Origin: Cymbomonas tetramitiformis
Taxonomy: Eukaryota > Chlorophyta > Pyramimonadophyceae > Pyramimonadales > Pyramimonadaceae
Length of the DNA: 64,000 bases
Assembly (NCBI GenBank): GCA_001247695.2
Contig: LGRX02033451.1
Location: forward strand, 1 to 64,000
Direction of reading: 5' to 3'
How positions within the stretch are numbered: position 1 is the stretch's first letter; each line of letters begins with the position of its first letter. Position numbers and translations under genes: made by a program. The notes under the pieces are model-generated. The model was given only the letters and a program-made list of their open reading frames with translations. It searched no databases and was not told the origin of the DNA. This document shows, one piece after another, positions 2,173-27,397 of this stretch.

Positions 2173-2539
2173 ACTACATGTATGTCGCTTAGGGGTGGCA
2201 TATGTCAGTGGATGACATGTGTGGTCGATGGTCTATGGTCTATGGTTTGTGTAAACATATATTTATGGTAATCTTATGTATGTCATATGTATATTTCATG
2301 CAAGTCTATGGTCTATGGTCTACGGTTTATATAAAGATATTTATTGTATTTTATATGTAAGATATATGTAAGATATATGTAAGATATATGTAAGATGTGA
2401 GTCTACAGTCTACGGTCTACGGTTTACATAAACATATTTCTTGTATATTTATGTATATCATATTGTCGATCTACTGATGTAAACACCACTAAGTCATTTT
2501 TATTTCTTTTCGTATCTTATGATGACCCAGTTATTCCAC
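2173..2539 (+). repeat. PLV left terminal inverted repeat
   Basis: These 367 bp are the reverse complement of 27031-27397, with no difference found by eye. The outer end begins actacatgtatgtcgc. The repeat holds three copies of a GTCTAYG-type motif followed by GTTT and an AT-rich tail (about 2230-2256, 2303-2340, 2401-2433) and a four-fold 11-bp repeat (about 2350-2395). The inner 21 bp (2519-2539) are the first seven codons of the methyltransferase gene whose full copy is at the other end, so the left repeat carries a truncated gene start. Confidence 0.93.
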
Positions 2540-2577
2540 TATTTTTTTTTTTTAATATTTACCGAAGAAATTTGCTA

Positions 2578-3381
2578 TCACTGTATTTCTATGAATTTCA
2601 CAATGAAGCTTGCTTTCATACCTAGTATATCTGCGTCACCTACTAATTGTAAAGCAAACTGATTACCTGGTTTAGTTATATACGTAAATTGGTTTAATAC
2701 GTCAAGCCTAGAATCACTTTCGTTAAATTCCGTTTGCGGCCGAGTAACAGAAACTATATATTTTCTACCTGTGATTTCTGGAGCTGTGATTGGTAAGTTT
2801 GATGTATCAAATGTTATGTTCAGAATCTTTCCGCCAGTAGCTATATCTGATGAAGTAAACGTCAAATTGAAGAAACAAATGAATTTTCCTGCAGGAATTT
2901 GCACGGTTCTATCACCTGGAGTTCCCCCAGTCAAAGCTGTAATGACTTGACAACCCTTGTAAGACAACTGTGTCGGCAATGTCAGTCTTTCTAACGCTAC
3001 ATTACGAGCTCCGGAAATATCACCCGACATGTTAATTCTGAAAAACCTATTTGTAGCTGCATTAGGTTTCCTTTGAAAATTTATAAAATATATAGTTTCA
3101 GCATCTGGTATGTTTACATCAGCGGTATTCAAACCAATAAATGAATTACCTGATACTTTTGTTCCAAATAAATCAATGTTAGTTTTGTCATTTGCAGTAT
3201 TGTTTATCTCACCATTTACCCGTAAATTATTTTGAACTATTACATTTCCATTTGTTCTTTCAATGTCATTTGTCGTACCTGACACATTTGACCATTTGCT
3301 CGATCCACCGTCTGGGGGATTGCCATTAATCGTATCACATGTTAAATTCTTACAAACTAAACTTTGTCCAAAACTTGACAT
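2578..3381 (-). CDS. Fibre-like virion protein
   Basis: The 267-residue protein has no recognised enzyme motif. It starts MSSFG, the same tail seen in the two neighbouring fibre-type proteins, and continues with a Thr/Asn-rich segment containing TINGNPP, of the kind common at the start of phage and PLV fibre proteins. The rest is rich in Asn, Thr, Ser, Gly and Ile, as in beta-structured attachment proteins. It is the last gene of the minus-strand structural block, next to the left inverted repeat. A TATA-like stretch abuts the ATG. The role in host attachment is inferred from composition and position. Confidence 0.55.
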   Translation of the reverse strand: MSSFGQSLVCKNLTCDTINGNPPDGGSSKWSNVSGTTNDIERTNGNVIVQNNLRVNGEINNTANDKTNIDLFGTKVSGNSFIGLNTADVNIPDAETIYFINFQRKPNAATNRFFRINMSGDISGARNVALERLTLPTQLSYKGCQVITALTGGTPGDRTVQIPAGKFICFFNLTFTSSDIATGGKILNITFDTSNLPITAPEITGRKYIVSVTRPQTEFNESDSRLDVLNQFTYITKPGNQFALQLVGDADILGMKASFIVKFIEIQ

Positions 3382-3394
3382 ATATCATATGTAC

Positions 3395-3934
3395 CTATTT
3401 AAATTTCACGCGGTATCGTTTAAAGTGTTTTATATGTGATATACCTAACAATCCTATAGCGTTAGGATAAACCAATACCGAGCCTTCTGCTACTTCACCG
3501 GTCGCTGGTAATATTAAAGGAACGTCGGAATATTGTGTTGTGGCAACCGAACCGCCTATACCGGTAGCACGTTGTGGTTGATTATGATAATCGGACGTAC
3601 CGTCTGGTTTAATTATTCCTATAAGTCTGGCATCTGCTGTGCTCATTTGGGTGGACGTTGCCCCTGTATCATATATTAAAATGGCGTTTGCACCGGTCCC
3701 ACCCTCTAATGATACGTTCACCCTAGATTGACGTTGATCTGTTTTTGCTTTTGTTTTTGGTAAGTTCTGTTTATTATATCTAACTACGTTTCCTTGGGCG
3801 TCAGCAATATTTCTTACCTTGCATCGAGTATTTGCAAGTCTTCCATTTATAATTCCTTTAATTCTCATACCGACCCCATCTTGAACGACGGTTTCACAAC
3901 TTGGTAAATTAGGATCATTTCGCTTTACAGGCAT
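3395..3934 (-). CDS. Retropepsin-like aspartyl protease
   Basis: The 179-residue protein shows the three landmarks of a retroviral-type aspartyl protease in the right order. These are the active-site motif YDTGAT at about residues 88-93 (catalytic D89), a glycine-rich flap-like segment ATGIGGSV around 123-130, and a hydrophobic GLLG motif at 161-164 matching the conserved ALLG-type helix. Such enzymes act as dimers of about 100-residue subunits, and here the domain spans roughly residues 70-179. The N-terminal 70 residues are basic and could be a pro-region or DNA-binding tail. It sits between fibre genes in the structural block. Polintons normally use an adenovirus-like cysteine protease for capsid maturation and none is seen here, so this enzyme may fill that role (inference). 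Confidence 0.7.
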   Translation of the reverse strand: MPVKRNDPNLPSCETVVQDGVGMRIKGIINGRLANTRCKVRNIADAQGNVVRYNKQNLPKTKAKTDQRQSRVNVSLEGGTGANAILIYDTGATSTQMSTADARLIGIIKPDGTSDYHNQPQRATGIGGSVATTQYSDVPLILPATGEVAEGSVLVYPNAIGLLGISHIKHFKRYRVKFK

Positions 3935-3945
3935 TTACAATATAT

Positions 3946-5754
3946 TTACAATTTAAATGACGGTTGTAAATAACATATAACTGCATTTGGCGATGCATGA
4001 GTTACGGTTTCCATACAGCACCCGATCACACCGGTCGTCGTTGTGACTGTCGCTGAATTTACAATACCATTTGCTTGAACTCCTAATAATTGCCCCTTGG
4101 TATACGAACCATCAATACAGTTAACAGAACAGAAACCGCTAATAAGTACAAAACAAGAATTACCTGCAAGACTATCTTGGATACATACACCGATAACAGC
4201 CACATTGGTATTAGTAGTTGTGTTTATCGCAGAGTATGGCTTTACACCGTTGATGTTCGTGCTGACATCGTCAAAAGAGACAACCGTTCCTGACGTTATC
4301 GTTGAAGATGTTGTGTTCACCATGGTATAGACTTGACCGGTGAACGTATTAGGTGATGTAGTTTTTCGATAAGCACTTGTAAGTTGTGTCAAAGGAATAC
4401 CATCGGTCGTTATCGAAGATGTGTTTGGATTTGTGTAAGCCCAGTCAATACTGTTTGTAATTCTAATAGCAGTTGTGTCTAAATCTGAACTGAGTTGGAT
4501 CGAACCACCGGTATTTCCGACAGCAAGGACCTGTGATAAACTTGGAACACCGCCGCCACTAGAAACAGGACCATATCGGACCTCATTGGATGCTGTGTCA
4601 TAATGCAACATTTGTGACTCGCTTGAAGGATCGGGACTGGCCCTGATAGGCCTGATATAACAACTACTTGCGACACCGGCATTTAATTCTACCCCGCTCG
4701 CGTTCAAAACGATTGTGTTATCGGTGTTAACCGCACTCTGAGTAGAGTTTTGTCCTGCCAAAGCACCTATGTTTATGGAACTTTCACCGGCTGTATATTC
4801 ACCTGCATATTTTCCAATGTTCACTGCTGCATCTTTGCAGTTAACCTGACCACAGTCGTCGCCAATAGACACGACATAGTCACCACAATTAGAATTACAC
4901 GAACCAGAACCAATCGCAATCGTATCATTACTTGTTGTATTGTTAATGGACAATGCATTCCTACCTATAGCGATAGAACGGTCTCCAATGTGGTCGGCAT
5001 TGGTAAACCGTTGAGTCTGTTCTCCGATCGATACCTTACCTAGACCGAGAGAGCCACTCTCAATTCTAAGATTATTTCCACTCAGTTTTTCTTGATTGAC
5101 TACCATGGTACCCGTTCCGGTGTATGAAACATCGGCGACACTAGTCGTGCTTCCTTGAGTAGTCACAGATTGCAAATCTTGGTTCGCACCTGTGGGTAAG
5201 TTACTCAATAATGAGCCATCTCCAATATACTTACCTGCAGTCAATGTGATATCACCGCTGTTGAGCACGAGTGGACCGTCGTTGATTAACAGACCACTGC
5301 CGAATGGCTCTATATTGATTGTCGTTTGCATACATGTAATTTCATTAATACCGGTTTCCCCAATCTTAACTCGTGTTTGTTCAACAGGATCCAAGCTTTT
5401 AATCTCAAACGATGCATCGAGGTCATCGAGACCTGCTGAAAATCGTGATTTGGAAACCGGGTTGTTCAACACGAAGTCGTTGAATTTGATTGATGTGTGT
5501 ACTTTTAGCGACCCATCTGTCAACAAGGACATTTGTTCTCTTTGATTCAATGGGTCTTGAGTATCTATGAATTTGATATCGTTCTGATAGCGTATATCTG
5601 ACCCGATATGCATGGGCTCAAGCGGCGATTCAACGCTGCCTATAGTTTGACACACCACTGTATCGCACGTTAGTGTATCGGTTGGACCCGTACCATTTAC
5701 AAATGGTTTACCGTTAATTTATGTTACAATTAAATTTGAACCGAAAGCTGACAT
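3946..5754 (-). CDS. Large fibre protein with YadA-like head repeats; early in-frame stop
   Basis: The long open part (to 5658) encodes about 570 residues. Its middle has repeated xxIG motifs (SIAIG, TIAIG, VSIG, VNIG, SINIG) spaced about 14-18 residues apart, the signature of the YadA/Hep_Hag left-handed beta-roll head of trimeric adhesins. The C-terminal third is Thr/Ser-rich beta-type sequence ending in several cysteines. The frame has no ATG at 5658, where the codon is GTG. Reading upstream in the same frame reaches an ATG at 5754 encoding MSAFG, the tail shared with the flanking fibre proteins, but a TAA at 5719-5721 interrupts it after 11 codons. So either this copy carries a nonsense mutation or sequence error, or translation begins at a non-ATG codon. 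Inferred role: trimeric receptor-binding fibre. Confidence 0.6.
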
Positions 5755-5776
5755 TATATACTATACTTTTTATATT

Positions 5777-6223
5777 TTAATATGTATTCCGATAAGATGT
5801 TGAAATCACATACCAATTTCCTGGAATGTCAACAACGGTAGTTGAACCTGATTGAAACGTCCTTTCGCCTGATGCAATTAGAGTGACGCTTGTAATACTA
5901 TTTCCATTGGTTGCATTATTTTCCAAAGTAATATCGCCGTTAATTGTGTCTGAAGATCCATTTATTCTGTCACCCTCAAACTTCTGAACAGTCACTGATT
6001 GCCCTGTTGCGGCTGTTCCGTTATAAATTGTAAACATTTTACCTTTGATAGCAGGTAGACATTCCGGCAACCGAACATTTGTAGCAGTATCACCTAATAT
6101 AATTTGATTCTGTACATCATCCTTTGTTAATTGTATCAATGTTCCATTTCTTAGTGTTGTGCGAAACGTAGTATTGGCATAAGTTAAGGTTTTTGCATTC
6201 AATTCATTTCCGAAAGCTGACAT
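5777..6223 (-). CDS. Short fibre-like virion protein
   Basis: The 148-residue protein begins MSAFGNEL, sharing its N-terminal tail with the proteins starting at 5754 and 3381. The rest is Thr/Asn/Gly/Ile-rich and ends in a pattern (SGSTTVVDIPGNWYVIS) often seen at the C-terminus of beta-rich phage tail-fibre or fibre-knob proteins. It lies just downstream of the 106-residue gene in the minus-strand structural block, with a TATA-like sequence immediately before the ATG. It may be a short fibre or spike using the same capsid anchor (inference). No enzyme motif is seen. Confidence 0.55.
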   Translation of the reverse strand: MSAFGNELNAKTLTYANTTFRTTLRNGTLIQLTKDDVQNQIILGDTATNVRLPECLPAIKGKMFTIYNGTAATGQSVTVQKFEGDRINGSSDTINGDITLENNATNGNSITSVTLIASGERTFQSGSTTVVDIPGNWYVISTSYRNTY

Positions 6224-6236
6224 TGTATATACTAAT

Positions 6237-6557
6237 CTATGAAAAAAACAAAGGTACAGGTTGCAACAATCGACTATTCAATGGATGCTCCATCGGGAAA
6301 TGGAACATTTCCATCTTTTGAGAAAGCTTTTCACCATGCCCTAAAGTATAACTTTTGTATCCCGCCAAAGGATGAACGTTGCTTATCCTGAATGGTGGAT
6401 ATGTGATGTCATTGATTGTTTTACACGGGAGTTGTTGCATCATAACCGGTCTAAAACCTGACATTTGAAACATCGTCGCGGTGTGAATCTGTTTGTCCAC
6501 GTTCGGTCCTACATCTTTTATCATGTTGTACCCAACCAATCCTGGTTGTTGAGCCAT
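6237..6557 (-). CDS. Small protein of unknown function next to the major capsid gene
   Basis: The 106-residue protein is not recognised. It is Met- and Pro-rich, with no membrane segment and no cysteine pattern. It sits between the major capsid candidate (24 bp upstream) and the short fibre gene (14 bp downstream), with an AT-rich TATA-like element directly before its ATG. That suggests co-expression with the virion genes. A minor structural or cement role is possible but rests on position only. Confidence 0.5.
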   Translation of the reverse strand: MAQQPGLVGYNMIKDVGPNVDKQIHTATMFQMSGFRPVMMQQLPCKTINDITYPPFRISNVHPLAGYKSYTLGHGEKLSQKMEMFHFPMEHPLNSRLLQPVPLFFS

Positions 6558-6580
6558 GTTTGTATACTATTAACCGCTTT

Positions 6581-7915
6581 TTAAAATACCGTTTCGATCA
6601 CACGGTTTTGACCGATACGAAGAACTGCGGTCGTTTCGCAAATAATCATGGTTTCGTTACTGTTTGTCAGATTTACCTTTTGTAAATCGTCATCTGGTTG
6701 TGCTACATGAGTTTGAAAATAGAAGGAACTGTTCAAACCCCGAGAATCCAATCCTGTCATACTGCGGACGCCCATTTCTGAGGGGAGATTCAAACGTACC
6801 ATAGGAATGAACTGATTATTGAGCCAATCTTCATAACTGTTAATCTTACAACCCGATAGCGTACCGTAGTTGTCAGCTTTAGCGATACAGAGCAGATTGA
6901 ACGCTGCAAGAGGATCGACTCGATAGTTAGGAACGAACAGGTTATTCAAGTTAAATTGTAGAGCACCTAAATGACCAGCTGAAAATCTAAAGTAAGACGG
7001 GAGGTAAGCTGTACCACAGGTGTTTTCCAATTTGATAAGTCCTAAAGGTTTATCCCGATAATCCCCTGGACGTTGAACAGCATATATGTTATCAATACAC
7101 TGTGAACTCAAAGAGAATCGCGTACTTTTGTCCATCGTAGCGGCCCCTTCAAAAAACGAAAAGTAGTTCTTATACGGAATTTCCAAAAAACCGTCACGCA
7201 ATTTTGATTCCACGGCGGCATCGTAGACACCTGAACTGAAAGTGATTGTTTCTACGGTAAAGTAAAGGTCGTCTAATAAAAAGTCCCCTTGTGAGATTAA
7301 AGTCTGTTGAGCTTTTTCCGTGAGATCGACTTCAGGTGGACTACCTTGGACAAACGCTCCTAACACCTCAGGCCCGTGGAGGTACAGCCTTATTTGGATC
7401 GGGCTAACTAAGCTGGTATCAATGTATGAAGGTTCTGCTTCTCCTAATATGCTGAGCCAGGTATTCAAGATGTATGGACGTGGTGTGGCATAGAAATTGT
7501 CAGCAACATTGATTTCTTGATTTTTGAGAACACGTTGATAAGTCATTTCTTTACTGAGTGTTGTTTTGATAGTGTCGAGAACGGTTGCTACCGTGCTGTA
7601 AGATTGAAAACCAGTGGTCAATTGCTGCCCTCCTGCGAACACCTCACACCTAGAGATGAGCTTTTCCAACCCGTTGGGAAGCGTAACAATTAAATCTTTA
7701 TTTCCATTGTCCGTATATGGTATAGGAGTTTTGCACGAACCTTTGCAATGCATACTGAGACTTTTCATATTAACGATGGAATTGACAGGCAGATTCAAAG
7801 TTATAGTTGAATACCTCGATGCTTTAGTAAGATTAGTGGTTTCCAATCTGAAGTAATTGGTGGAATACGAGTTCATTTTCGATAAGCCGTAGGCCAATGA
7901 CATGGGGAGGCTCAT
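6581..7915 (-). CDS. MCP: Major capsid protein candidate (double jelly-roll type)
   Basis: The 444-residue protein has the length, composition and position expected of a PLV major capsid protein. It starts with an NSYSTNYFRLE-type segment and is rich in beta-forming stretches and turns throughout. It is followed downstream by fibre genes and preceded by the minor capsid candidate, the usual PLV order. Double-jelly-roll subunits form pseudo-hexameric trimers that build the icosahedral shell. The fold itself cannot be proved from sequence by eye; the call rests on overall resemblance to PLV capsid proteins and gene order. A TATATATA-type element lies just upstream of the ATG. No break is visible. 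Confidence 0.75.
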   Translation of the reverse strand: MSLPMSLAYGLSKMNSYSTNYFRLETTNLTKASRYSTITLNLPVNSIVNMKSLSMHCKGSCKTPIPYTDNGNKDLIVTLPNGLEKLISRCEVFAGGQQLTTGFQSYSTVATVLDTIKTTLSKEMTYQRVLKNQEINVADNFYATPRPYILNTWLSILGEAEPSYIDTSLVSPIQIRLYLHGPEVLGAFVQGSPPEVDLTEKAQQTLISQGDFLLDDLYFTVETITFSSGVYDAAVESKLRDGFLEIPYKNYFSFFEGAATMDKSTRFSLSSQCIDNIYAVQRPGDYRDKPLGLIKLENTCGTAYLPSYFRFSAGHLGALQFNLNNLFVPNYRVDPLAAFNLLCIAKADNYGTLSGCKINSYEDWLNNQFIPMVRLNLPSEMGVRSMTGLDSRGLNSSFYFQTHVAQPDDDLQKVNLTNSNETMIICETTAVLRIGQNRVIETVF

Positions 7916-7937
7916 TTTTGTATATATATTATAAAGA

Positions 7938-9174: not shown

Positions 9175-9183
9175 TAATATAGA

Positions 9184-9675
9184 TTATAGTATTATTATTT
9201 CTTCCCAACCGTCATCGTCATTATCAGATTCATCCATAACATCAAACTCGGGATCGTTATGCACAGCTCGAACAATTAATGCCGTACTAAGGGCATTATG
9301 AATATCGTCCATATCTAAACATTCATACTTTTTATCTTCAACCAAAATATTGTACAACTCATTACAAAATGCAACTTCGTTACAATAATCGACTATATTT
9401 TGAAGTGTTGCTCGTCCATATTGGAAAACCTCCATCATGTGATACTTGTAAGCGGAACACCATTTGTCAACCACAAATCTTCCTTCCAACTCAAAATTAA
9501 GCTCATGTTCTACTTTTTTGGTATACGTGTCTAATGCTTTTTTGAGGTTTTCTTCTTTCAATTCCAATAACACGTCTTCGAAGTGTTCTTTATGTTCTTG
9601 AAATTCCATTGTATGCACCATATTGTAGATCTTCTCTTTAATGTCCAAAGGCAAATGATAAAAAGTATAAACCAT
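9184..9675 (-). CDS. Acidic alpha-helical protein, unknown
   Basis: The 163-residue protein is predicted by eye to be mainly helical, rich in Glu, Lys and Tyr, and ends in a strongly acidic tail (DESDNDDDGWEE). It has no recognised domain. The N-terminus (MVYTFYHLPLDIKEKIYNMV) resembles the short F-box-like openings seen in many giant-virus and PLV proteins, but that is too weak to assign. It is the first gene of the structural cluster after the intergenic GTCTAYG motif at about 9755-9777. Confidence 0.5.
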   Translation of the reverse strand: MVYTFYHLPLDIKEKIYNMVHTMEFQEHKEHFEDVLLELKEENLKKALDTYTKKVEHELNFELEGRFVVDKWCSAYKYHMMEVFQYGRATLQNIVDYCNEVAFCNELYNILVEDKKYECLDMDDIHNALSTALIVRAVHNDPEFDVMDESDNDDDGWEEIIIL

Positions 9676-9749
9676 AGTGGCCTTTGTCTCGATTGTTCTA
9701 CCCTATAAATAAATGGTCTTTATGTGGATTTTTGTAAAAGCTCTTTGGT

Positions 9750-9777
9750 AAAACTATAGACCATAAACCATAGACTA
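9750..9777 (-). promoter_or_regulatory. Intergenic GTCTAYG-family motif
   Basis: On the minus strand this reads as tandem GTCTATG-like heptamers followed by GTTT. The family occurs three times in each inverted repeat and between several internal genes (near 17151, 19262, 20374, 21073 and 21158). Here it lies between the end of the lipase frame and the 163-residue gene. Its function is unknown. Confidence 0.45.
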
Positions 9778-10989
9778 CTATTCATACCGACGTTCAAAAC
9801 TCGTCATTCTATCGGAATCTTTACCACTAATGGCATCGGCTAGGAATCTAGCTTCCGGCGGAGCCGTATCGTACGTCAATTGATAATCTGGGTCTATATC
9901 AATTCCAAAAATGCCATAAGGATTTAGATCTTCACTTACCGCGTTTGAAAAAGTTGACGGTTATGTGTTTCGTCTTGCCATACGAAGACCATGGTCAGCT
10001 GCAAAAGCACCTTGCACGACATCTAAACCAGTGCTCAATACATTCCCTATAGATTTCATAAGATTTAGTTTATTCACTTTATTGTTAGTTGGATATTGAA
10101 AGAACTGCGACAAGCTATGTTGATCAGGCACATACGATGATAACGTTGATTGTCTTTTCTCAGGAAAGTAATGAAATATATTTCTTTGTGAGTTTGCAGG
10201 TTTGTAAAGAGCACCGGCCGTTGTAGAATCTGTGACGGTTCTATGAATGTCATGGCGTCCACCACCAACTTGATGTGATAACGGCGATAAGAAAGGATTA
10301 AATGTAGTACTCTTTAATTTAAACTTATCGGCCACATGTATGGCCTTGGCACCTCCTAGAGAATATCCCATTGGTTCAATGTTGTGATTTGGATATTTCT
10401 GTCTTACTTTATCAAACACATCTTCAGCACGCAAGAATGACGGTCTATTTGATTCTTGGCCACGAAGTACTGACTTGATGTCAGTGACATCCTCGTTTCT
10501 ATACATAGGATTGCTGGATGCCCCATGGTAAGCAACATGCACTCTGTTGGCATCAGGATTGACAAGAACGGCAGCATCATAATTTGATAGCTCCCGATCT
10601 AATGCAAAGTTATTGTTTGGAATCTCGTTGTTGACAAATCGTTGTGCATTGGATATAGTTTGGTCCTCAAACGAATTTGGATAGTACAAATCAGGTTGAT
10701 ATTCTCGTGACCCTAAATATCCAGATGTTTGAACATGTAAAGCTTTTTCTCGGAGTTCTGGTGTGAATTGTTGTTCAATTTCAGAAGGTTGTAAGTTGAC
10801 GCTTTCACGAAATAGTGCATTCATCGTGGGTAATGATGATGATTGTACAAAGTAACCTTTGGATGTCTCGGAAAGTATGGGTTTATCTTCATTTTTGCTT
10901 GTGAAAAAGTTACCAATTGTTTTGAAAGATGCATCCATTGGTCTACAATAAACGTTCGATTGATAGCTTTGATTACAAGGAATATTCAT
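9778..10989 (-). CDS. Lipase-like alpha/beta-hydrolase; in-frame stop before a 60-codon extension
   Basis: The 342-residue open part (9961-10989) has a class-3-lipase-like core: a beta-strand plus oxyanion-type segment VHVAYHGASS at about 150-159 and the nucleophile elbow GYSLGG at 208-213 (S210). The remaining catalytic Asp and His cannot be placed with certainty. Lipases of this type cleave acyl esters and could act on host membranes during entry or egress (inference). After the TAA at 9961-9963 the same frame stays open for 60 more codons to a TAG at 9778. That extension has protein-like composition, including GIFGIDIDPDYQLTYDTAP, and has no ATG of its own until near its end. The TAA is therefore probably a recent nonsense change, a sequence error or a readthrough site. 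Confidence 0.65.
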
Positions 10990-10994: not shown

Positions 10995-11615
10995 TTAAGT
11001 ATCTTTTTCCTTTTGTTTGTATGGAGATGAAACGTCTTCTCCAGTAACAAAATTAACTACTTTTCGAAAGGGACTTTGTGTTGATTGGGCTCGGGTCCTG
11101 ACACCTTCTGAAGCGAGACCCCCAAAAACTTTTGGATCTTGCATTTCGTGTAATTGCAACGATTCCTGGACTGCGAGTTTCATATTTCTATCCTTTCCAG
11201 TAACCTTTGACGGTCCAGCTTCAGGAGTCTCTGGTAATAGTTGTTTGGATGCTTCTGCGACCATGGCGTTTCGGTCTTCAGCGTCTTTGGCAATACGCAG
11301 CAACGCTTGATTATTGATTTCGTCTTGTGTCATTGTCAGCATTGGATTCATTGTCATCATAGAATTGGGTATGGTTGTATCAATATCACTGCTATAGTCC
11401 TGAATGTCTCTCACTAATGGCTCCGTTCTTATGATTGAATCTCTCAAACTATTGTAGAATACCGCACTGTTTTGACTCGGCATCGTTATCACGTAGTTGT
11501 TTTTAGCGAGTTTACCATATCCTCGGAACAGAGTGTCGGAACTTGAGCCATTGGCAACTCCCATCATTTTCATACAATTACGTCGTCCGACCTCATCGGT
11601 CAATATTGTTCTCAT
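10995..11615 (-). CDS. Virion-block protein of unknown function
   Basis: The 206-residue protein is not recognised. It is Met/Ser/Asn-rich in the middle with a basic C-terminal half. It ends 5 bp before the lipase-like gene and starts 6 bp after the integrase stop, a tightly packed arrangement that suggests joint expression. TAATATATA immediately precedes the ATG. There is no membrane segment or catalytic motif. Confidence 0.5.
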   Translation of the reverse strand: MRTILTDEVGRRNCMKMMGVANGSSSDTLFRGYGKLAKNNYVITMPSQNSAVFYNSLRDSIIRTEPLVRDIQDYSSDIDTTIPNSMMTMNPMLTMTQDEINNQALLRIAKDAEDRNAMVAEASKQLLPETPEAGPSKVTGKDRNMKLAVQESLQLHEMQDPKVFGGLASEGVRTRAQSTQSPFRKVVNFVTGEDVSSPYKQKEKDT

Positions 11616-11621: not shown

Positions 11622-12941
11622 TTAACGGTTTCTTTTTTTCAACAGTTTAATTTCAGGGTCAGGTATATCAACGAACTCATCCTCTTCCGATTTGTCATAG
11701 AATATCAACTGATACTTACGTTTACTTTTCCTTGATCGATTGAGCTTAAGATATCCTTTCAAAGTCTTTTGATAATTTGACGATTTCTTATCGCTAATGA
11801 ACACATTAACTTCATAATCATCATAGTTCCTGGGTGTCTTGGAAGCGGTATTGCCTTCTATACCCTCTTTCTTCAACGCACGCTCAGATTTTGCGGCCTG
11901 CTTGTTTTCACTGTCAGTCTTGGTCCCACGAGTTTCTTTGGATGGTTTGGAAACAGGTCCTTGAACCTCTTTCAGTTCTCTTGGTTTGTATTGTCGGCTT
12001 AAGGTATCACCGTCACCGTCCTCTATCACGAAAGACAAACCCTTTCTACTTCTAATTTTGTACACCTGCGTAGACCATGTTTGACTCTCTTTATCAAATG
12101 TCTTCTTAGTCACACGTAATCTCACTCGATCGCCTGGCTTAATGTCCAATTTCTGCAAGAGTTTGGCAGTCTTATTTCTCTTCAATAATACATTTCGAAG
12201 GATGGTAGCTTCGGTCATATCATTAGGTGGAGTCTCGTTAATATTCCCTTGATTTACCGTTTCATTGTAATTTTCGACTATAGAATCTAAATAGTCAACC
12301 CAATTAGATTTACCGGTTCTAGCTTCGTTGAATTTAAATCTCCGTTTCAATGTTTTGTTAAACCGCTCGATTTTCCCTTGACGAGAGTGGTCCTCAGCTT
12401 GAGATGTGTAATGTTTGATACCTTTCTCTTTCAACAATGCCTGGACTTTTTTGTTTGTAAACTCAGAGCCAAGATCGGTTGTAAGAGTATCCATTTTGGT
12501 TTCGCTTATTAATCGTCTCATGGCAGACACAATGCCCTCCACATCTTCCTGTCTTTTATTGTTTTTATCTCTGACAGTCTTGGATTTCAAAGCAATCGCG
12601 TAGGCCTTATTACTATTGATATTGATTCCTGTCAGAATTACGGCGTAACCTTTGTTTACCGACTTATCTCGAGGTATGAACGCGAGGTCGGCTTGGATAG
12701 AAACCTTGTCAGCGGGTCCATAGATCGGAAAGTAATCTTTACGATTTATCCTTTTAGGCTGTGATAAAACTTGTGATGTCTCAGTCTTGAAAATAGCAGC
12801 CTTGACCTGAGATTCTGTGACCTTGTAACCTTGTGCCTTAAGCTTCTTGGTAAATGCATTGGCACTACTTAAACCAAAAGACGGGTCAAGATACAGTTCT
12901 TGCAATCTACTTTCAGAAATGGGTTTTGAAGTACTGCTCAT
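11622..12941 (-). CDS. INT: rve-family (retroviral-type) integrase
   Basis: The 439-residue DDE integrase inserts the viral DNA and makes the 6-bp target duplication seen at its borders. The catalytic triad is visible as D85 (in IQADLAFI), D156 (in LTTDLGSEF) and E192 (in QGKIERFNKTLKRR), giving the D,D(35)E spacing typical of retrovirus, LTR-retrotransposon and Polinton integrases. The first 70 residues hold a helical DNA-binding region. Residues of about 260-310 form an SH3-like basic segment (KPGDRVRLRV). The lysine-rich linker is followed by a C-terminal module (about 370-439) of chromodomain-like composition, which in Polintons can guide integration; that last part is inferred. It lies between the polymerase and the 206-residue gene. 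Confidence 0.9.
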   Translation of the reverse strand: MSSTSKPISESRLQELYLDPSFGLSSANAFTKKLKAQGYKVTESQVKAAIFKTETSQVLSQPKRINRKDYFPIYGPADKVSIQADLAFIPRDKSVNKGYAVILTGININSNKAYAIALKSKTVRDKNNKRQEDVEGIVSAMRRLISETKMDTLTTDLGSEFTNKKVQALLKEKGIKHYTSQAEDHSRQGKIERFNKTLKRRFKFNEARTGKSNWVDYLDSIVENYNETVNQGNINETPPNDMTEATILRNVLLKRNKTAKLLQKLDIKPGDRVRLRVTKKTFDKESQTWSTQVYKIRSRKGLSFVIEDGDGDTLSRQYKPRELKEVQGPVSKPSKETRGTKTDSENKQAAKSERALKKEGIEGNTASKTPRNYDDYEVNVFISDKKSSNYQKTLKGYLKLNRSRKSKRKYQLIFYDKSEEDEFVDIPDPEIKLLKKRNR

Positions 12942-17139: not shown

Positions 17140-17180
17140 TTTAGGTCGGAGGTCTATGGTCTATGGTTTGTAGGAAAAGT
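17140..17180 (+). promoter_or_regulatory. Intergenic GTCTAYG-family motif
   Basis: Tandem GTCTATG heptamers followed by GTTTGTAGG and AAAAGTATT. It is the same architecture as copies in the inverted repeats and near 19262 and 20374. It lies in the 191-bp gap between two minus-strand genes. Its function is unknown. Confidence 0.45.
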
Positions 17181-17265: not shown

Positions 17266-17700
17266 TTATATTTTTGTGACATCATCGCGACTTTTCTTTT
17301 GTTTTTTCATTTTGATACGTTTTTCAATATTATCAATAGCTTTACGATAAGTACCAACACCGGTGAATTCTTCCGTAGGTCGTTGAAATACTGAGTCACC
17401 GCTGATTGTACCAATACTGCTTTTGTCTAACGGTGCTACCATGATAGGTGCTATCCTACGAGGTTTAGGTGGGAGAGCGGGGTCTTTGATGGGCTGTTGA
17501 TAAACTGGTTGGCCGCTTAGAGTTCCATGGTCTAAGGCGGTTCTACTTTTGTTTGATGTCTTCTTAACAACCGGACGACCTCGTAAGCTTTTAAGCTTTT
17601 CACCTTGTGTCATCTTACCGGGTCTCTTTTTTATTCCGTGTTCGGCTCTATACTCTTGTGCACATTGCTTTAGTTTTGTGATCCAAGCCTCCTTGGTCAT
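17266..17700 (-). CDS. Small basic protein, possible DNA-binding or core protein
   Basis: The 144-residue protein is strongly basic at both ends (GIKKRPGK near residue 22, RIKMKKQKKSR near the C-terminus) and Pro-rich in the middle (DPALPPKPRRIAP). Two related segments (TLSGQPVYQQP and TISGDSVFQRP) suggest an internal duplication. No known domain is recognised. It heads the minus-strand block, facing the plus-strand block across a 109-bp AT-rich gap that probably holds divergent promoters. A genome-condensing core-protein role is possible by composition only. Confidence 0.5.
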   Translation of the reverse strand: MTKEAWITKLKQCAQEYRAEHGIKKRPGKMTQGEKLKSLRGRPVVKKTSNKSRTALDHGTLSGQPVYQQPIKDPALPPKPRRIAPIMVAPLDKSSIGTISGDSVFQRPTEEFTGVGTYRKAIDNIEKRIKMKKQKKSRDDVTKI

Positions 17701-17809: not shown

Positions 17810-18280
17810 ATGGCTGTTAAGGGACAGAAGATCGAAGACCCCGTTGTTCTTGAAAGATTAACAAAAATGAGAGAGAAAGCTATCGAAGTGAGACGCAAAA
17901 AGGCTCAAGAGAAACAAGATATTAAGATGGCTGAGCAGCTTAAGGAGAAAGAGAAAGTGACCGAAGCCCAAGAAAAGATCAAACAAGCTACCTCAAAGCG
18001 TACACCAACTGAACCTGAAGATCACGAGCCTGAAGTTAACGAGGAACCCGAGAAAGTGTACGTGAAGAAGCCAAAAGCAACACCTAAGAAGAAACCCAAA
18101 AAGCAAGTTGTCATTGTTGAATCTGATAGTTCATCTAGTGAAGATGAAGAGCCCGAAGTGATCGTACGTAAGTCTACGAGACGTAAGCAAAGCAAATCTG
18201 AATCACCACCGAAACATAAGGCTGCCGATGATGACCGGACATATGATAAAGCTTACAACAGTCTATTTCTCAACTTATGA
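17810..18280 (+). CDS. Highly charged protein with an acidic serine patch
   Basis: The 156-residue protein has a Lys/Glu-rich N-terminal half, likely a long helix or coiled coil (about 10-65). A proline/lysine region follows (about 80-100), then an acidic serine run (ESDSSSSEDEE, about 104-114) that looks like casein-kinase-2 sites, and a basic segment (RKSTRRKQSK) that could serve as a nuclear localisation signal. It ends five bases before the ATG of the packaging ATPase, suggesting a shared transcript. Function unknown; a scaffold or nucleic-acid-binding role fits the composition. Confidence 0.5.
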   Translation: MAVKGQKIEDPVVLERLTKMREKAIEVRRKKAQEKQDIKMAEQLKEKEKVTEAQEKIKQATSKRTPTEPEDHEPEVNEEPEKVYVKKPKATPKKKPKKQVVIVESDSSSSEDEEPEVIVRKSTRRKQSKSESPPKHKAADDDRTYDKAYNSLFLNL

Positions 18281-19305: not shown

Positions 19306-19308
19306 TAT

Positions 19309-20292
19309 TTACACATAATGTGGTGTATCATATATTGGATCTACCACAGGCTTTCGATGATCATACGACTTAAACCATATCACACAGTACCTATTACCTC
19401 GAAAGTCATCTAGTATCACTTCATGAGGTAACCTACCATCCATCTTCAAGATTTTATTGTGATAGTCGTAATCTCCAATGACATCGTCATTTTTGTCGTA
19501 ACATCTCAAGGCAGCTCCGGTGTAATCTCCAAGAGCCAATGCATATTGAAAGCTCACATCATCTTTGTCTACATGCTTTCTCACATAGTGGTCTCCGGTT
19601 GTCATCTTAGAATAGTTCACAACATACTCTCCCTCGGCAAAATCTTTGTCAACCATGCTTATTAATTCATTTGACAATCTCCATAAGTGTTGTTTCCATT
19701 TTGGGAGTTTTCGGTCCTCAACCGGTGTCACACATACACCTTTCCCTTTCTTGGATGAGATATTGTGAGGTGTGTGAAAGCCACCACTGCCCAATGCTCC
19801 CGTCGTGTGCCCAAGTAAAAATGCCCATTCTAGATTGAATCTAAGTTTTTTGGTCTTATCTCTATATTGCTTATCCATATTGACATTATCGAGAATCTCT
19901 TCAATATTTTTCATGAGATCTCTTGCCTTTTCATCCTCGCTTACCAATGTCGAGGTCACTTGCTCTTCAACGATTATATGCTCTTTATCACATCGGACAG
20001 CGGTTGGTATCTTTTCATGGCATTGCCAATATTTTCTAGGATCCTCGTCAAAGTGGAAATAGGTCCGATGACAAGACCTGAAGTACCGATCTTTGGTAAT
20101 GGTCCAAGTCTCCCAAGTAGACTTGTTCTCCGACCAATATAAGTGTTTGCGATCACGATGAGCACTAAGATAAGTGTTGTCTTTTACGTTATGTATATAT
20201 ACATATCTCATCGGCTTCCGTCCAATTTCGACATCGGTCACCACTTTTACTTTGATGTCTTCGTCGCTTTTCCAAAGAAGATAGTTAGGCAT
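19309..20292 (-). CDS. 2OG-Fe(II) oxygenase with N-terminal beta-trefoil-like domain
   Basis: The 327-residue protein has two parts. Residues of about 25-110 resemble a fascin-like beta-trefoil module (NTYLSAHRDRKHLYWS, then WETWTI), a fold used for binding sugars or other ligands. Residues of about 215-310 carry the iron and 2-oxoglutarate site of a double-stranded beta-helix dioxygenase: H240-x-D242, distal H290 (in RLPHEV) and R301 (GNRYCVI), with the ALGDYTGAAL strand between. The pattern resembles TET/JBP-like oxygenases of algae and algal viruses, which oxidise methylated bases, but other substrates are possible. The neighbouring gene, transcribed divergently, is a cytosine-C5 methyltransferase, which makes 5-methylcytosine a plausible substrate (inference). 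Confidence 0.75.
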   Translation of the reverse strand: MPNYLLWKSDEDIKVKVVTDVEIGRKPMRYVYIHNVKDNTYLSAHRDRKHLYWSENKSTWETWTITKDRYFRSCHRTYFHFDEDPRKYWQCHEKIPTAVRCDKEHIIVEEQVTSTLVSEDEKARDLMKNIEEILDNVNMDKQYRDKTKKLRFNLEWAFLLGHTTGALGSGGFHTPHNISSKKGKGVCVTPVEDRKLPKWKQHLWRLSNELISMVDKDFAEGEYVVNYSKMTTGDHYVRKHVDKDDVSFQYALALGDYTGAALRCYDKNDDVIGDYDYHNKILKMDGRLPHEVILDDFRGNRYCVIWFKSYDHRKPVVDPIYDTPHYV

Positions 20293-20369
20293 AATTGCAA
20301 TAGCAAGTATTCAAGTTAGTATGTTGTTTGTTCTACCTTAAGTATTATTGGTCTTTAAGTGGATTATTT

Positions 20370-20412: not shown

Positions 20413-20417
20413 TACAA

Positions 20418-21050
20418 ATGAGAGTATTAGAATTATTCTGCGGTACATCTTCAGTTGGTAAAGCATTGAGACATATATATACCGATATTGATATAATCTC
20501 TCTTGACATTCATCATAAATATAATCCTACACATGCTGTAGACATACTTCAATGGAGTTATAGGATGTATCCCGAAAGACACTTTGACATTATTTGGGGA
20601 TCACCTCCCTGCGTAGAATATTCTAAAGCAAAACGCAAAGGAGTAAGAAATCTTGAATTGGCTGATAACATAGTAAAGAGAACATTAGAGATCATAGAAT
20701 ATTATAAACCCACTTATTGGTATATAGAGAATCCTTCAGACGGAGGATTGCTTAAACATCGAGAGATAATGAAAGATATCAATGAATATATGTACACATG
20801 TTCTTATTGCATGTATGGAAAGGAGTATAGAAAACAGACTAATATATGGACTAATAAACCTAATGTATACTTAAAGAACTGTAGTAGGGAGACTCCTTGT
20901 ATACATAAGCAAATACATGGAAGACATATGAAGACTGCTCAAAGAACTCAATCCTCATGTGCCTCTCATAGCACGGGACAATCTTTAGAGGATGCATACA
21001 GTATCCCATTTGAATTATTGAAAATATTATTAACATACGATGACCCATGA
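20418..21050 (+). CDS. DNA cytosine-C5 methyltransferase (short type)
   Basis: The 210-residue enzyme transfers a methyl group from S-adenosylmethionine to C5 of cytosine in DNA. Visible motifs are motif I LELFCGTSSVG (residues 4-14), an acidic SAM-ribose site (SLDIHH, 28-33), motif IV GSPPCVEYS (61-69, catalytic C65), motif VI IENP (103-106), and a motif VIII-like region with KQTNIWTN. It is about half the length of typical bacterial C5 enzymes and has little room for a target-recognition domain, like compact versions in algal viruses. It diverges from the 2OG oxygenase. The start is fixed by the first ATG after the TATA-like stretch. No sign of damage. Confidence 0.85.
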   Translation: MRVLELFCGTSSVGKALRHIYTDIDIISLDIHHKYNPTHAVDILQWSYRMYPERHFDIIWGSPPCVEYSKAKRKGVRNLELADNIVKRTLEIIEYYKPTYWYIENPSDGGLLKHREIMKDINEYMYTCSYCMYGKEYRKQTNIWTNKPNVYLKNCSRETPCIHKQIHGRHMKTAQRTQSSCASHSTGQSLEDAYSIPFELLKILLTYDDP

Positions 21051-21064
21051 CAAACACACATGAA

Positions 21065-21186
21065 TTACAATTGTTTACACAAACCGTAGACCATAGACTG
21101 TAGACTAATATGATTGTTGATGATCATATGCATTAATTGTTTGAATTATAATTGTTTACACAAACCGTATACCATAGACCGTAGAC
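21065..21186 (-). promoter_or_regulatory. Two GTCTAYG-family motifs in a convergent gap
   Basis: Two copies (about 21073-21105 and 21152-21188) read on the minus strand as GTCTACAG/GTCTATG/GTCTACG heptamers followed by GTTTGTGTAAAC. Both are flanked by the same attgtttacacaaaccgta sequence, so the second copy looks like a local duplication. The gap is between the convergent C5 methyltransferase and helicase genes. Confidence 0.5.
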
Positions 21187-23577: not shown

Positions 23578-24497
23578 AGTGTACGTTAGATATTATTCAA
23601 TGAACCCATGACGCAAAGTGGGTCTAAAAAATATTTTCTGAGTCTGAAAAGCCAAAAACGCACTGTTACAGGGCCTGATTTCAGATCGCAGACCCCCCTG
23701 GACAGTGGGTCGTGGGTCGTGGGTCGACGGTTTCAGATTAAAGTATTTTGTAATCGTTCGATTAAATAATATCGAAGGTCTGTGCGAAATCTGTGTATAA
23801 TTTCAAATGCTCCTTGGACGCAGGAACGCTTTCGAAGTTATTACGTCATAGAGTTCCAGTGAAATTTGCGTATAAACATAAAAGTCCGACTTGAAACACT
23901 CGTTTGCCATGCTGGAACAGTATATAAGTGACTATAATTACTTTCTCCACGGTGGAGCACTCGTTTGCCATGCTGGAACACTAAATAAACGAGTCTGAAA
24001 TTTATTTCCATGCTGGAACAGTATATAAGTGACTATAATTACTTTCTCCACGGTGGAGCACTCGTTTGCCATGCTGGAACACTAAATAAACGAGTCTGAA
24101 ATTTATTTCCATGCTGGAACAGTATATAAGTGACTATAATTACTTTCTCCACGGTGGAGCACTCGTTTGCCATGCTGGAACACTACCATTGGGTCGAAAA
24201 GAATTATACGATCAAAACCGCCGAAAATATCCCGATAATATGTAATGACACGGAACGGACGATCGTCAACCTGGAACATTCAATTGTCGACCTGGAACAT
24301 TCAATTGTCGACCTGGAACATTCCATTGTTTATCTGGAACACTGTCATTGGATAATTTGAAATGCCAATCTAAGTGAGAACTTACATCCATGCTCTGCTA
24401 AAACACTGCCGGCGTTTTCAAGGTGCGAGCCAACTTTTCGACCCTGCCTGTTGACTGTCCAGCTGTTTGATATCTATTCTATTTACCTACTTCTATC
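23578..24497. promoter_or_regulatory. Long intergenic region with tandem repeats, origin- or enhancer-like
   Basis: This 920-bp gap has no convincing gene. It holds a degenerate GTCTAYG-family motif (about 23700-23745), the 101-bp tandem repeats (23897-24186) and a 21-bp repeat block (about 24268-24345) built on a tcaattgtcgacctggaaca unit. The heptamer TGGAACA recurs about ten times. It is the only large non-coding region inside the element, so a replication origin or control region is a reasonable guess. Confidence 0.5.
23897..24186 (+). repeat. 101-bp tandem repeat, about 2.9 copies
   Basis: The unit repeats at exactly 101 bp (start points 23907, 24008 and 24109). Each contains a TATA-like GTATATAAGTG, a hairpin CTCCAC-G-GTGGAG, and an 8-bp inverted pair ACTCGTTT ... 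AAACGAGT around a second CCATGCTGGAACA. The copies look almost identical. Confidence 0.9.
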
Positions 24498-25214
24498 ATG
24501 ACTTCTTTGGCTATTGATGATGATACCTATGAGGAGAGACAAGAAGAGGCTGAAAAGCATCCTGCCTTAGTCGCAAAGGAAAAAGCTATTCTCTTGACTG
24601 AGTTGAAACGCCCGAATCTTGATTCTATTCAGCAGCGAGTTCAAAATTTTACGACTTGGCACAGGTCTGAACTGATATCTACTGCTGAGCACGCTGTGAT
24701 TCTCGTGACCTCCTTCCAAGGACGAGAACACAAGCTATTGATTGAGGAGCCAAGCCTCCCTAATATCGTCCAGTTACTATTTGACATACCTGATGCGACT
24801 ATGAGAAGTGACTATGTCGACTTTTTCTATGACGCTCGTTCCGCATCTATCGTAGGAAAAGAAGTGTTAGACGCGAAAAAAGAAGCTGAGAAAACTGAAG
24901 CGGTCGCTTTGAAAAATGCGGACGTAGCTAAGCTCCTTGCTGCCTTGCAAGCACAAGGGGTTGACGTCTCTACTCTGAAAACTAGCAACGAATTAACTCT
25001 CCCTACTGCTCCTCCTATGGCTCAAGTTGTTCCTGGAGTCCCTGCTACTGCACCTCCTAACTTAATCGACATAGTAGGTCCTAATCCGCCCACTAGTGAG
25101 CCAGCCGCCTTACAGAACGTGGGGGAGAAACGTTCGCAGCCTGAGGCGAGAAGTTCTCTCGCTGAGACTCTTGGAAGTTTGTTGGGCTCGTCGAAAGCAC
25201 CTCGCAAGTTTTAA
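24498..25214 (+). CDS. Orphan protein, unknown (PLV accessory)
   Basis: The 238-residue protein is not recognised. The N-terminal two-thirds is mixed helical with an acidic start. Residues of about 125-155 form an Ala/Lys/Glu-rich helix (a possible coiled coil), and the C-terminal part is Pro/Ala-rich and probably disordered. Its codons are visibly more GC-rich than those of the core PLV genes. It follows the tandem-repeat region and is followed by a short spacer of TTCGCAT-type repeats. It may be an acquired accessory gene; no function can be assigned. Confidence 0.5.
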   Translation: MTSLAIDDDTYEERQEEAEKHPALVAKEKAILLTELKRPNLDSIQQRVQNFTTWHRSELISTAEHAVILVTSFQGREHKLLIEEPSLPNIVQLLFDIPDATMRSDYVDFFYDARSASIVGKEVLDAKKEAEKTEAVALKNADVAKLLAALQAQGVDVSTLKTSNELTLPTAPPMAQVVPGVPATAPPNLIDIVGPNPPTSEPAALQNVGEKRSQPEARSSLAETLGSLLGSSKAPRKF

Positions 25215-25422
25215 GGTAAGTCCCTTCCGCATTTTCAGTTCTTAGCTTCGCATCACGCTTCGCATGTCGCACTTCAGTTACTCCGCATGTCCCTTCGCAC
25301 TTCAATGTTTCGCATCACGCTTCGCATTTTCAGTTCTTAGCTTCTCTTGACTTATCACGTTCCGCATGTCGCACTTCAATATTCACTTCAATGTTTCGCA
25401 TCGTGTGCTGTGGCGTGCAGAT
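25215..25422 (+). repeat. Spacer with irregular TTCGCAT/TTCGCAC repeats
   Basis: Short motifs of the type cttcgcat, cacgcttcgcat and gtcgcacttca recur at least ten times in about 200 bp, with larger blocks (agttcttagctt, caatgtttcgcatc) duplicated. It separates the two orphan genes. Confidence 0.6.
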
Positions 25423-26025
25423 ATGAGCGACGAAGGCGAATCTCGGACGTGGCGTGACCTAGAGGGCCACTTGTGGTGGCACGTCGACGACTTGAATAAG
25501 AAAGTTAAGCAGTCCAAGGCTCAGAACCGCACTGAAATTAAGAAGTTTGTTTTGGACCAGCTTGAGCCTATTAAGGCTATGTTTGATTCGCACTTGGAAA
25601 GTGCACACGTTGATCCGCCACCAGCAGCGGATGGGCCAGCTCGTTCTGGGTCCAACGACCCGCAGTTTGTTTCAATGCGTAAGTTTCAAGCTATGGAGGC
25701 ACAGCTTGCTTTCCTTCAAGCAGATGTAGCCAAGCAGGCAAAGGAATTAGAACAGGCACACGAGGAGTGGAACGTCTTCGCATCCGAGCCCCACAAGCCG
25801 GCAGCCCCTTCATCCGTCACTTGCAAGCAAGTTGTCATTGAGAGTAGTGAGATAGATAGGCTTAAAACTGAGGCGGTGCTTATCCAGGGTCAGACTTTGA
25901 CGCAAGAAGATGCTCAGCACTTGACTTATTTCCGTGAGCTCCTAAAGGACGGAATTGTGCAGCTCGAGGCACGCAGCCTGCTTCTCTCGTCCCCTCCAGC
26001 CAAGAAACGAAAAACCCAGCCGTAA
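25423..26025 (+). CDS. Orphan coiled-coil protein with C-terminal nuclear-localisation-like tail
   Basis: I prefer the ATG at 25423 (MSDEGESRTW) over the upstream one at 25366, whose extra residues come from the repeat spacer. The roughly 200-residue protein has a helical Lys/Glu-rich first third, a Pro/Ala linker (about 64-75), a coiled-coil-like stretch (MEAQLAFLQADVAKQAKELEQA, near 90-110) split by polar residues, and a C-terminal PPAKKRKTQP that looks like a classical monopartite nuclear localisation signal. The gene is more GC-rich than core PLV genes. No domain is recognised; action in the host nucleus is an inference from the tail. Confidence 0.5.
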   Translation: MSDEGESRTWRDLEGHLWWHVDDLNKKVKQSKAQNRTEIKKFVLDQLEPIKAMFDSHLESAHVDPPPAADGPARSGSNDPQFVSMRKFQAMEAQLAFLQADVAKQAKELEQAHEEWNVFASEPHKPAAPSSVTCKQVVIESSEIDRLKTEAVLIQGQTLTQEDAQHLTYFRELLKDGIVQLEARSLLLSSPPAKKRKTQP

Positions 26026-26337
26026 TTTGAGTCTGGTAGTTAACATCTGAGTGTAGCCGTGAACATCCGAACATCCGAGAGCCCAAGTGGCTGATATGCT
26101 ATTATTTTGGTACTTTTTCACTTTTATAATATGTGCTTTTAGTCTGTTCAGTGAAAAAAACTTCTTAACTCACTTGCTTGCCTTGCAACATCCGAGCATC
26201 CGAACACCCGAAGTGCACTTGTGCACCCGAGCATCCGAACATCCGAAGTCACACACGCACCCGAGCATACCTGCAAAGTGATATTATATCATAAAGCACT
26301 TCACATATTATTGCATAGATCATTGCATAACAACTTG
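26026..26337 (+). repeat. Intergenic region with CATCCGA repeats
   Basis: A 7-8-bp motif (aacatccga, gcatccga, cacccgaa) recurs about nine times at 26045-26075 and 26188-26275. It has no coding potential I can support. The unit differs from the TTCGCAT spacer upstream, but both are short degenerate direct repeats next to the orphan genes. Confidence 0.55.
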
Positions 26338-27051
26338 CTAGCTTTCAGTTATTTCTTTTGCTATCTGATAATACTTATGATCTTTTTCAATCCCTATATA
26401 TCTGCGTGAATTATCTAAACAGACTTGAGCTGAACTCCCAGTACCCATAAAAGGGTCTAATACTGTATCATTTTCATTTGAATAAGTTCTTATTATGTAT
26501 TGCATGATATCATATGGCTTTGCTGTCGGGTGTGTAGACTTGTAATTACTTTTGTCAATATGTATAACTGATCGAGGAAATCGTTTTCCATCTGTGTTTT
26601 GGGTATTTACTCTCGGTGATTGTCCTGCGTAGAGTTCTGTGCGTCGACCGGGAACACGTGTATAAGGTTGACCGTCAGTCTTTTGAGGATTATATGTAGT
26701 CCGACCTTTTGCAAATATGTAGATCATTTCGTGTGCTCTTAGCTCTTGATAATTTGCGTGATAAAAGAGAGTCGACATGGACTTAACGTAACAAAGATCA
26801 CGTCGGAAATATGGTTTATTACTTGATATTAGTTCATGACCGAAACGTGTCGTGCAAAAGAATATGTACGCAGCTTTTGGTTTTCCGATTCTTTTTAATT
26901 CTTTCCATAACTTATCTAAGTCTACTTTATTCTTATCGAACTTACAAGCTGTTTGATTATATGGGAGATCAAGTATCACTAAATCAACTGAGTGCGTGTC
27001 GATATTTGGGAATACATCGAAACAGTCTGCGTGGAATAACTGGGTCATCAT
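26338..27051 (-). CDS. DNA N6-adenine or N4-cytosine methyltransferase
   Basis: The 237-residue enzyme has its motifs in the order of the beta class of amino-methyltransferases. Catalytic motif IV is near the N-terminus (DLPY, residues 28-31, with Leu for the usual Pro), HPTAKP is at about 174-179, and SAM-binding motif I is near the C-terminus (DPFMGTGSS, 199-207). The target base cannot be told from sequence. Its first seven codons lie inside the right inverted repeat, so its promoter must be repeat DNA. The left repeat holds the same start codons leading nowhere. A defence against host nucleases or a marking role is possible (inference). Confidence 0.85.
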   Translation of the reverse strand: MMTQLFHADCFDVFPNIDTHSVDLVILDLPYNQTACKFDKNKVDLDKLWKELKRIGKPKAAYIFFCTTRFGHELISSNKPYFRRDLCYVKSMSTLFYHANYQELRAHEMIYIFAKGRTTYNPQKTDGQPYTRVPGRRTELYAGQSPRVNTQNTDGKRFPRSVIHIDKSNYKSTHPTAKPYDIMQYIIRTYSNENDTVLDPFMGTGSSAQVCLDNSRRYIGIEKDHKYYQIAKEITES

Positions 27052-27397
27052 AAGATACGAAAAGAAATAAAAATGACTTAGTGGTGTTTACATCAGTAGA
27101 TCGACAATATGATATACATAAATATACAAGAAATATGTTTATGTAAACCGTAGACCGTAGACTGTAGACTCACATCTTACATATATCTTACATATATCTT
27201 ACATATATCTTACATATAAAATACAATAAATATCTTTATATAAACCGTAGACCATAGACCATAGACTTGCATGAAATATACATATGACATACATAAGATT
27301 ACCATAAATATATGTTTACACAAACCATAGACCATAGACCATCGACCACACATGTCATCCACTGACATATGCCACCCCTAAGCGACATACATGTAGT
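27031..27397 (-). repeat. PLV right terminal inverted repeat
   Basis: Reverse complement of 2173-2539, 367 bp, with no mismatch or gap found by eye. It contains the start of the methyltransferase gene at its inner end and three inverted GTCTAYG-family motifs. Confidence 0.93.

Follow-up and report, generated by a model that had tools for sequence, protein, structure and literature searches.

The element and its insertion site

The window analysed here is a stretch of 64,000 nucleotides from the green alga Cymbomonas tetramitiformis (contig LGRX02033451.1). Near its left end lies an element of 25,225 bp (positions 2173 to 27397; Table 1) that is best explained as an endogenous polinton-like virus (PLV). 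Its length and its terminal inverted repeats (TIRs) fall within the range used for such viruses (14-40 kb with TIRs). A first-pass annotation, made from the letters of the window, had claimed inverted repeats of 367 bp without mismatch and a 6-bp GCCATG duplication. Indeed, the two TIRs are exact reverse complements over this length, with the first mismatch at base 368, and GCCATG stands directly outside both ends as a target-site duplication (TSD). The GC content is 39% within the element vs. 52-53% in the flanks.

Excising the element together with one GCCATG leaves, on the minus strand, an open stop-to-stop frame of 851 codons that spans the junction. Because this frame is restored, the insertion is precise, and it is recent enough that the target frame remains open. 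Neither flank half of the interrupted frame has a Pfam match; it may resemble a retroelement gag. The absence of mismatches between the TIRs agrees with a young insertion, and replication before insertion can also make TIRs alike. The hallmark frames are open in the translations, as the first-pass annotation had stated, and its view of a complete-looking, recently inserted polinton-like provirus is supported by the exact ends, the hallmark genes and the young appearance.

Integration, replication and packaging genes

The predicted DDE integrase matches the Pfam family rve with an E value of 1.1e-6 (29.3 bits, under the curated cut-off of 32.6), and its translation shows a D-35-E spacing. An rve integrase and a 6-bp TSD, the hallmark of Polintons (Mavericks), are thus both present. 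The earlier call of a protein-primed B-family DNA polymerase (PolB) holds for the polymerase, which matches DNA_pol_B_2 (PF03175) at residues 824-972 (E 5.8e-22); protein priming is presumed from the PolB family. Judged by these protein families, the element carries a Polinton-type polymerase and integrase. The proposed packaging ATPase fared less well. Its 312-aa product contains the P-loop-like AKRGGSKT and an FFDD stretch, and has no Pfam match; the best match of a five-member profile to the PDB is weak (E 0.023). It is a putative A32-type packaging ATPase, weakly assigned.

Capsid proteins and the aspartic protease

Two proteins, of 444 and 336 aa, had been put forward as capsid candidates, and comparisons of their modelled folds point the same way. 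The model of the first is a double jelly roll (DJR) that matches capsid chains of Paramecium bursaria chlorella virus 1 (PBCV-1) and Singapore grouper iridovirus (SGIV) with E values from 7.6e-15; by this fold it is the predicted major capsid protein (MCP). The model of the second is of middling quality and resembles pentons, and the protein is taken as a penton or minor capsid protein. Its leading named structural relatives are two proteins of Tetraselmis viridis virus S1 (E 2.1e-10 and 6.6e-10), a cultured PLV (PMC11071308; here and below, papers are cited for excerpts of their text). However, identity to them is only 10-11%, and they are listed as uncharacterized. A penton profile run against PDB sequences gave a single match, to a ribosomal protein (E 1.1), which was taken as chance. 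Protein searches returned 15 relatives for the MCP, 13 for the penton and three for the protease discussed below; scans of viral contigs with the MCP (an alignment, plus one homologue) and with the ATPase found no relatives.

Within the same block, a 179-aa protein shows weak Pfam aspartyl-protease matches (E 0.0036 and 0.012). The window copy scores below both cut-offs, and all ten aligned members of its family match PF13650 and PF13975 (best E 6.9e-5). The motifs DTG and LLG are invariant in these ten, with a single DTG and a single hydrophobic-G per domain. Among the matches listed for the family profile in the PDB (60 of 204), retroviral proteases are found throughout: E is 2.9e-5 on tethered dimers of the human immunodeficiency virus 1 (HIV-1) protease, a value that sums two weak domain hits, and 0.021 or weaker on single chains. 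We read the protein as a retropepsin-like (clan AA) aspartic protease, and its place suggests a role in capsid maturation. Related viruses have been described with a cysteine protease or with none (PMC12220804, PMC7805220, PMC11071308). In 20 of the 21 listed open reading frames (ORFs) of the element, Pfam detects no cysteine protease (Ulp1/adenain), a 219-aa ORF and overlapping ORFs of 109 and 112 aa lying outside the scan. No mention of an aspartic protease in polinton-type viruses was found in the open-licence literature passages checked; most subscription reviews lay outside that search, and absence from print is not shown. Where excerpts of candidate papers use the term "aspartic", it concerns a tRNA synthetase (PMC10945749), a reference title (PMC11071308) or retroviruses (PMC10848233).

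These proteins bear on the name of the element. PolB, an rve integrase and a 6-bp TSD make up the Polinton set, and Polinton or virophage could be the better label. Nevertheless, the named structural relatives of the penton are led by a PLV, with virophage proteins lower in the list, and the cysteine protease was not found in the ORFs scanned, which makes a change of label improbable.

Copies in the genome and exchange of gene blocks

Further copies were sought, as the first-pass annotation had advised, in the assembly of 851,713,466 bases in 25,745 contigs, and many were found. The best 40 of 329 TIR candidates were scored and show 91-100% identity, the two of the window included. The best 95 of 1,756 MCP candidates, again with that of the window, show 96-100% protein identity, and 93 of these 95 have no stop, a share biased upward by the scoring of only the best candidates. 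The opinion that provirus boundaries at single-base precision are uncommon is not supported: besides the many copies in this genome, 1,193 complete elements are reported from cryptophytes and chrysophytes, and TSDs are given for 57 of 97 members of one cluster and 179 of 305 of another (PMC12220804).

Six copies, picked from the MCP match list with long contigs favoured, were compared in detail (C171, C2038, C4858, C4898, C11929 and C19394). The ends of C2038 and C171 are resolved, with the 6-bp TSDs CACATG and CCCAAG, respectively; both elements, like that of the window, begin with ACTACATG.

Near-identical capsid-core genes occur in elements that differ in polymerase, helicase and, where resolved, TIRs. 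Identity to the window is 98.6-99.8% for the MCP in all six copies and 99.1-99.7% for the penton in five, the gene being broken in C19394. For PolB, identity is 97.7% in C2038, which has a shorter frame of 1,107 out of 1,265 residues, and about 48% in four other copies; no match to it was found in C19394. In the four copies with diverged PolB, the synonymous divergence (dS) of the MCP is 0.005-0.09 vs. 0.70-0.95 for the integrase, within which identity to other copies falls, whilst dS of PolB is saturated and not computable over the aligning half of the gene. All six copies have the aspartic protease, which falls into two allele classes: dS to the window is 0.03-0.10 in one (two copies) and 0.53-0.67 in the other (four copies). 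Five copies carry the ATPase, at 56-76% identity to that of the window. They include C2038, which is window-like nearly throughout, yet differs in its ATPase allele: the match to the window breaks off at about 18120 and picks up again at about 19267, within a repeat cluster. This second allele class is common to C2038 and C4898. One edge of the swap lies in that cluster and the other outside, and the events are too few to decide on recombination at repeats.

The slot for the helicase is filled differently as well. In the window and C2038 it holds a D5/superfamily 3 (SF3)-type protein, in C171 a Prim-Pol/PriCT_2/SF2-like protein (E 9.4e-12 and 3.2e-5, helicase models below cut-off), and in C11929 an origin-binding-protein-like SF2 helicase (E 3.7e-26). 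C4858 and C4898 encode 950-aa proteins whose first 70 residues are nearly the same as those of the C11929 helicase. Direct comparison of the latter with the window-type and C171 proteins revealed no relationship, and three different predicted helicase systems stand beside one capsid type. The polymerases differ in parallel. In the window and C2038, the second exonuclease motif of PolB is without its FD and the third without its YxxxD, and motif B reads GG; four other copies keep these residues and read YG in motif B. When PolB and helicases of these copies are set side by side, loss of the exonuclease residues goes with SF3 and their retention with SF2-type helicases.

Mosaics of this kind could arise in assembly, if repeats of different proviruses were misjoined. 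False stops and assembly trouble are reported for such repeats (excerpts of PMC10120064), and the number of contigs is large. However, C171 and C2038 each have matched TIRs with a TSD, the four copies with diverged PolB all show one and the same arrangement, and the second ATPase allele class is found in two copies. We consider such an artefact very unlikely. Module exchange is already known in PLVs and in the endogenous mavirus-like elements (EMALEs) (PMC12220804, PMC8547959); new are its recency and the gene-level detail within one genome.

Several observations concern single copies. The 327-aa gene is split into two frames in C2038 (L032 7627-8609). C11929 encodes a SET-domain-like protein (L030:7-474; E 0.00041, just under cut-off), and no such match was seen in the 20 window ORFs scanned. 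C19394 (L044-L046) is interrupted by non-element DNA; one protein encoded there, of 1,688 aa, combines reverse transcriptase, RNase H and aspartyl protease domains. Descent of the viral protease from this Ty3/gypsy-like element is unsupported, as direct comparison gave no meaningful alignment; an origin from some retroelement is inferred.

Type-specific repeats in TIRs and gene junctions

A 25-base motif, AAACCGTAGACCATAGACCATAGAC, occurs, with up to five mismatches, six times in the TIRs and six times inside the element. It is found neither in the rest of the window nor in one shuffle of the element. C2038 carries it in its TIRs and interior; it is absent from the pieces analysed of the five other copies, of which C171 alone has both TIRs resolved. 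The repeat in C171 is unrelated and some 55 bases long, and it too is found both in the TIR (950 bp) and at gene junctions. Inside the capsid block, neither the window element nor C171 has a type-specific repeat. The repeats could be promoter-like sites, origin sites or recombination seams; a promoter-like role was proposed for the type-specific intergenic motifs of EMALE types (PMC8547959).

Selection on capsid and other genes

Capsid genes are under purifying selection. At 19 loci chosen on the MCP alone and compared with the window, the ratio of nonsynonymous to synonymous differences per site (pN/pS) is 0.15 for the penton, 0.06 for the 106-aa gene, 0.10 for the 555-aa gene (part only) and 0.46 for the 148-aa gene; the value of 0.18 for the MCP comes from loci ranked on the MCP itself. 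Full-length frames are found at 18 of 19 loci for the penton, 19 of 19 for the 106-aa gene and 18 of 19 for the 148-aa gene. Between the window and C2038, the capsid-block genes without the MCP show 29 synonymous and 20 nonsynonymous differences (pN/pS 0.20, P 5e-8 vs. neutral), and eleven other genes show 144 and 116 (P 7e-35); the ATPase, 327-aa and 163-aa genes are excluded from this count.

A transposon confined to the nucleus, with the capsid genes as passengers that look intact since the copies are young, would fit the many near-identical copies in one genome and the lack of virion evidence. However, the selection just described is seen in comparisons not ranked on the genes concerned, and the capsid core is spread over replicon types whose PolB differences lie beyond synonymous saturation. 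Selection acts on replication and capsid genes alike, and a virus is therefore favoured over a purely nuclear transposon, which we regard as unlikely.

Other features of the window

Table 1. Features of the element and its borders (window coordinates).
Feature	Position	Strand	Remark
TSD, left copy, GCCATG	2167..2172		joined flanks give 851-codon frame on - strand
Left TIR, 367 bp, with 3 copies of type-specific repeat	2173..2539	+	exact inverted-repeat comparison
267-aa protein, left edge of capsid gene block	2578..3381	-	40-99.6% identity in six copies
Retropepsin-like aspartic protease (predicted), 179 aa	3395..3934	-	DTG at residues 89-91, LLG at 162-164
555-aa protein, perhaps fibre-like (repeats), no family match	3946..5613	-	pN/pS 0.10, covered part
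148-aa protein	5777..6223	-	fastest changing of five genes compared, pN/pS 0.46
106-aa protein	6237..6557	-	100% identity in 6/6 copies
MCP (predicted), DJR, 444 aa	6581..7915	-	fold comparison of model
Penton / minor capsid protein (putative), 336 aa	7938..8948	-	penton-like fold, middling model
163-aa ORF	9184..9675	-	slot 9179-9791 matchless in all 6 copies
Internal TIR-repeat copy	9751..9775	+	further copies start at 17145, 19271, 20372, 21081, 21162
342-aa protein	9961..10989	-	weak UPF0227 (E 0.0036), alpha/beta-hydrolase (E 0.077), both below cut-offs
206-aa protein	10995..11615	-	listed ORF
rve (DDE) integrase (predicted)	11622..12941	-	Pfam rve; identity to other copies drops near 12173
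PolB (predicted), 1265 aa	12962..16759	-	DNA_pol_B_2; lacks exonuclease motif II/III residues and motif-B Tyr
144-aa basic protein	17266..17700	-	listed ORF
156-aa charged protein	17810..18280	+	contains left edge of ATPase swap, about 18100-18140
Putative packaging ATPase, 312 aa	18286..19224	+	from motifs and company
327-aa protein	19309..20292	-	no family match; split in C2038
C5 cytosine DNA methyltransferase	20418..21050	+	Pfam scan
D5/SF3-type primase-helicase, 796 aa	21187..23577	-	Pfam scan
N6/N4 DNA methyltransferase	26338..27051	-	Pfam scan
Right TIR, 367 bp	27031..27397	-	exact reverse complement of left TIR
TSD, right copy, GCCATG	27398..27403		identical to left copy

The 327-aa protein may be 2-oxoglutarate-oxygenase-like. 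The stretch 9184-9791, i.e., the 163-aa ORF with the adjoining TIR repeat, is matchless even in C2038, which is otherwise about 98% identical. The stretch 23900-26300 has a higher GC content (47% in the 24000-26000 bin). Two ORFs, of 238 and 219 aa, lie on its plus strand, and tandem repeats of 101, 21 and 35 bp are found within or next to it; of the six copies, C2038 alone matches its first 2.2 kb. Outside the element, positions 31968-62113 are rich in tandem repeats with periods of 2 to 195 bp. ARAGORN found no tRNA in the window, and an Rfam scan at gathering scores gave no match.

Relation to known elements

The endogenous PLVs of cryptophytes and chrysophytes share with the present element a length of 14-40 kb, TIRs, an rve integrase with 6-bp TSDs and a DJR capsid, as well as large expansions per genome, replication genes whose history is separate from that of the structural genes, and a Prim-S2H replicase type. 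In contrast, only a cysteine protease is described for them, methylases are seldom found and lone S3H helicases turn up occasionally (PMC12220804); the present element has two methylases, an aspartic protease and an SF3-type helicase that is unfused. EMALEs, mavirus-like virophages of Cafeteria, are likewise low in GC and have TIRs; they replace modules through recombination, have intergenic motifs specific to their type, and carry retrotransposon insertions. They differ in their virophage capsid set and cysteine protease (PMC8547959); in the Cymbomonas elements, three helicase systems accompany a capsid core that is near-identical, and their motif is also in the TIRs. The Oxyrrhis marina element OmPLV is similar in size (about 25 kb) and has TIRs of 232-858 bp, PolB, an MCP and an N6 methylase, but it uses a tyrosine recombinase without TSD and an SF1 helicase-PolB fusion, and its penton and protease are absent or unrecognised (PMC12721341).

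Interpretation

We put the probability at about 85% that the element is an endogenous PLV, inserted by its DDE integrase with a 6-bp duplication into a previously open frame, in a genome whose co-resident elements recombine. Such a virus would replicate as linear DNA from the TIRs by PolB and the primase-helicase, would be packaged in DJR capsids matured by the aspartic protease, and would be reinserted into host DNA. Recombination between co-resident elements may then make one capsid gene block common to several replicon types.

Several points weigh against this explanation. The element is known from DNA, and neither virion nor transcript nor mobilisation has been observed. PolB of the window type lacks conserved exonuclease and motif-B residues, and the assignment of the packaging ATPase is weak. 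Only six of 11 chosen copies were compared, with TIR pairs resolved in two of the six, and selection of copies by MCP protein score lowers nonsynonymous divergence of the MCP. In addition, the capsid block varies more in its outer genes than in its core, with identities in the six copies of 73-99% for the protease, 40-99.6% for the 267-aa protein and 76-99% for the 555-aa protein.

The combination of an exchangeable capsid core, an adjoining aspartic protease and type-specific TIR repeats deserves attention. A bolder reading is possible, if rather doubtful: a retropepsin-like protease of retroelement origin may have replaced the cysteine maturation protease, as part of a capsid block that passes from one replicon to another. 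Each replicon type would have an iteron or promoter code of its own in the TIRs, and the "virus" would be a shell that several separate replication systems in the same nucleus have in common. For capsid maturation, an aspartic protease within a DJR capsid block would be an unusual solution. The pairing of a PolB without the exonuclease-motif residues with SF3, and of PolBs that retain them with SF2 helicases, bears on the trade-off between exonuclease and helicase that has been proposed (PMC11071308). Finally, selection on capsid genes is a means of deciding between virus and transposon for Polinton-like elements; here a single genome offers many copies for measuring it, and these genes prove to be constrained.

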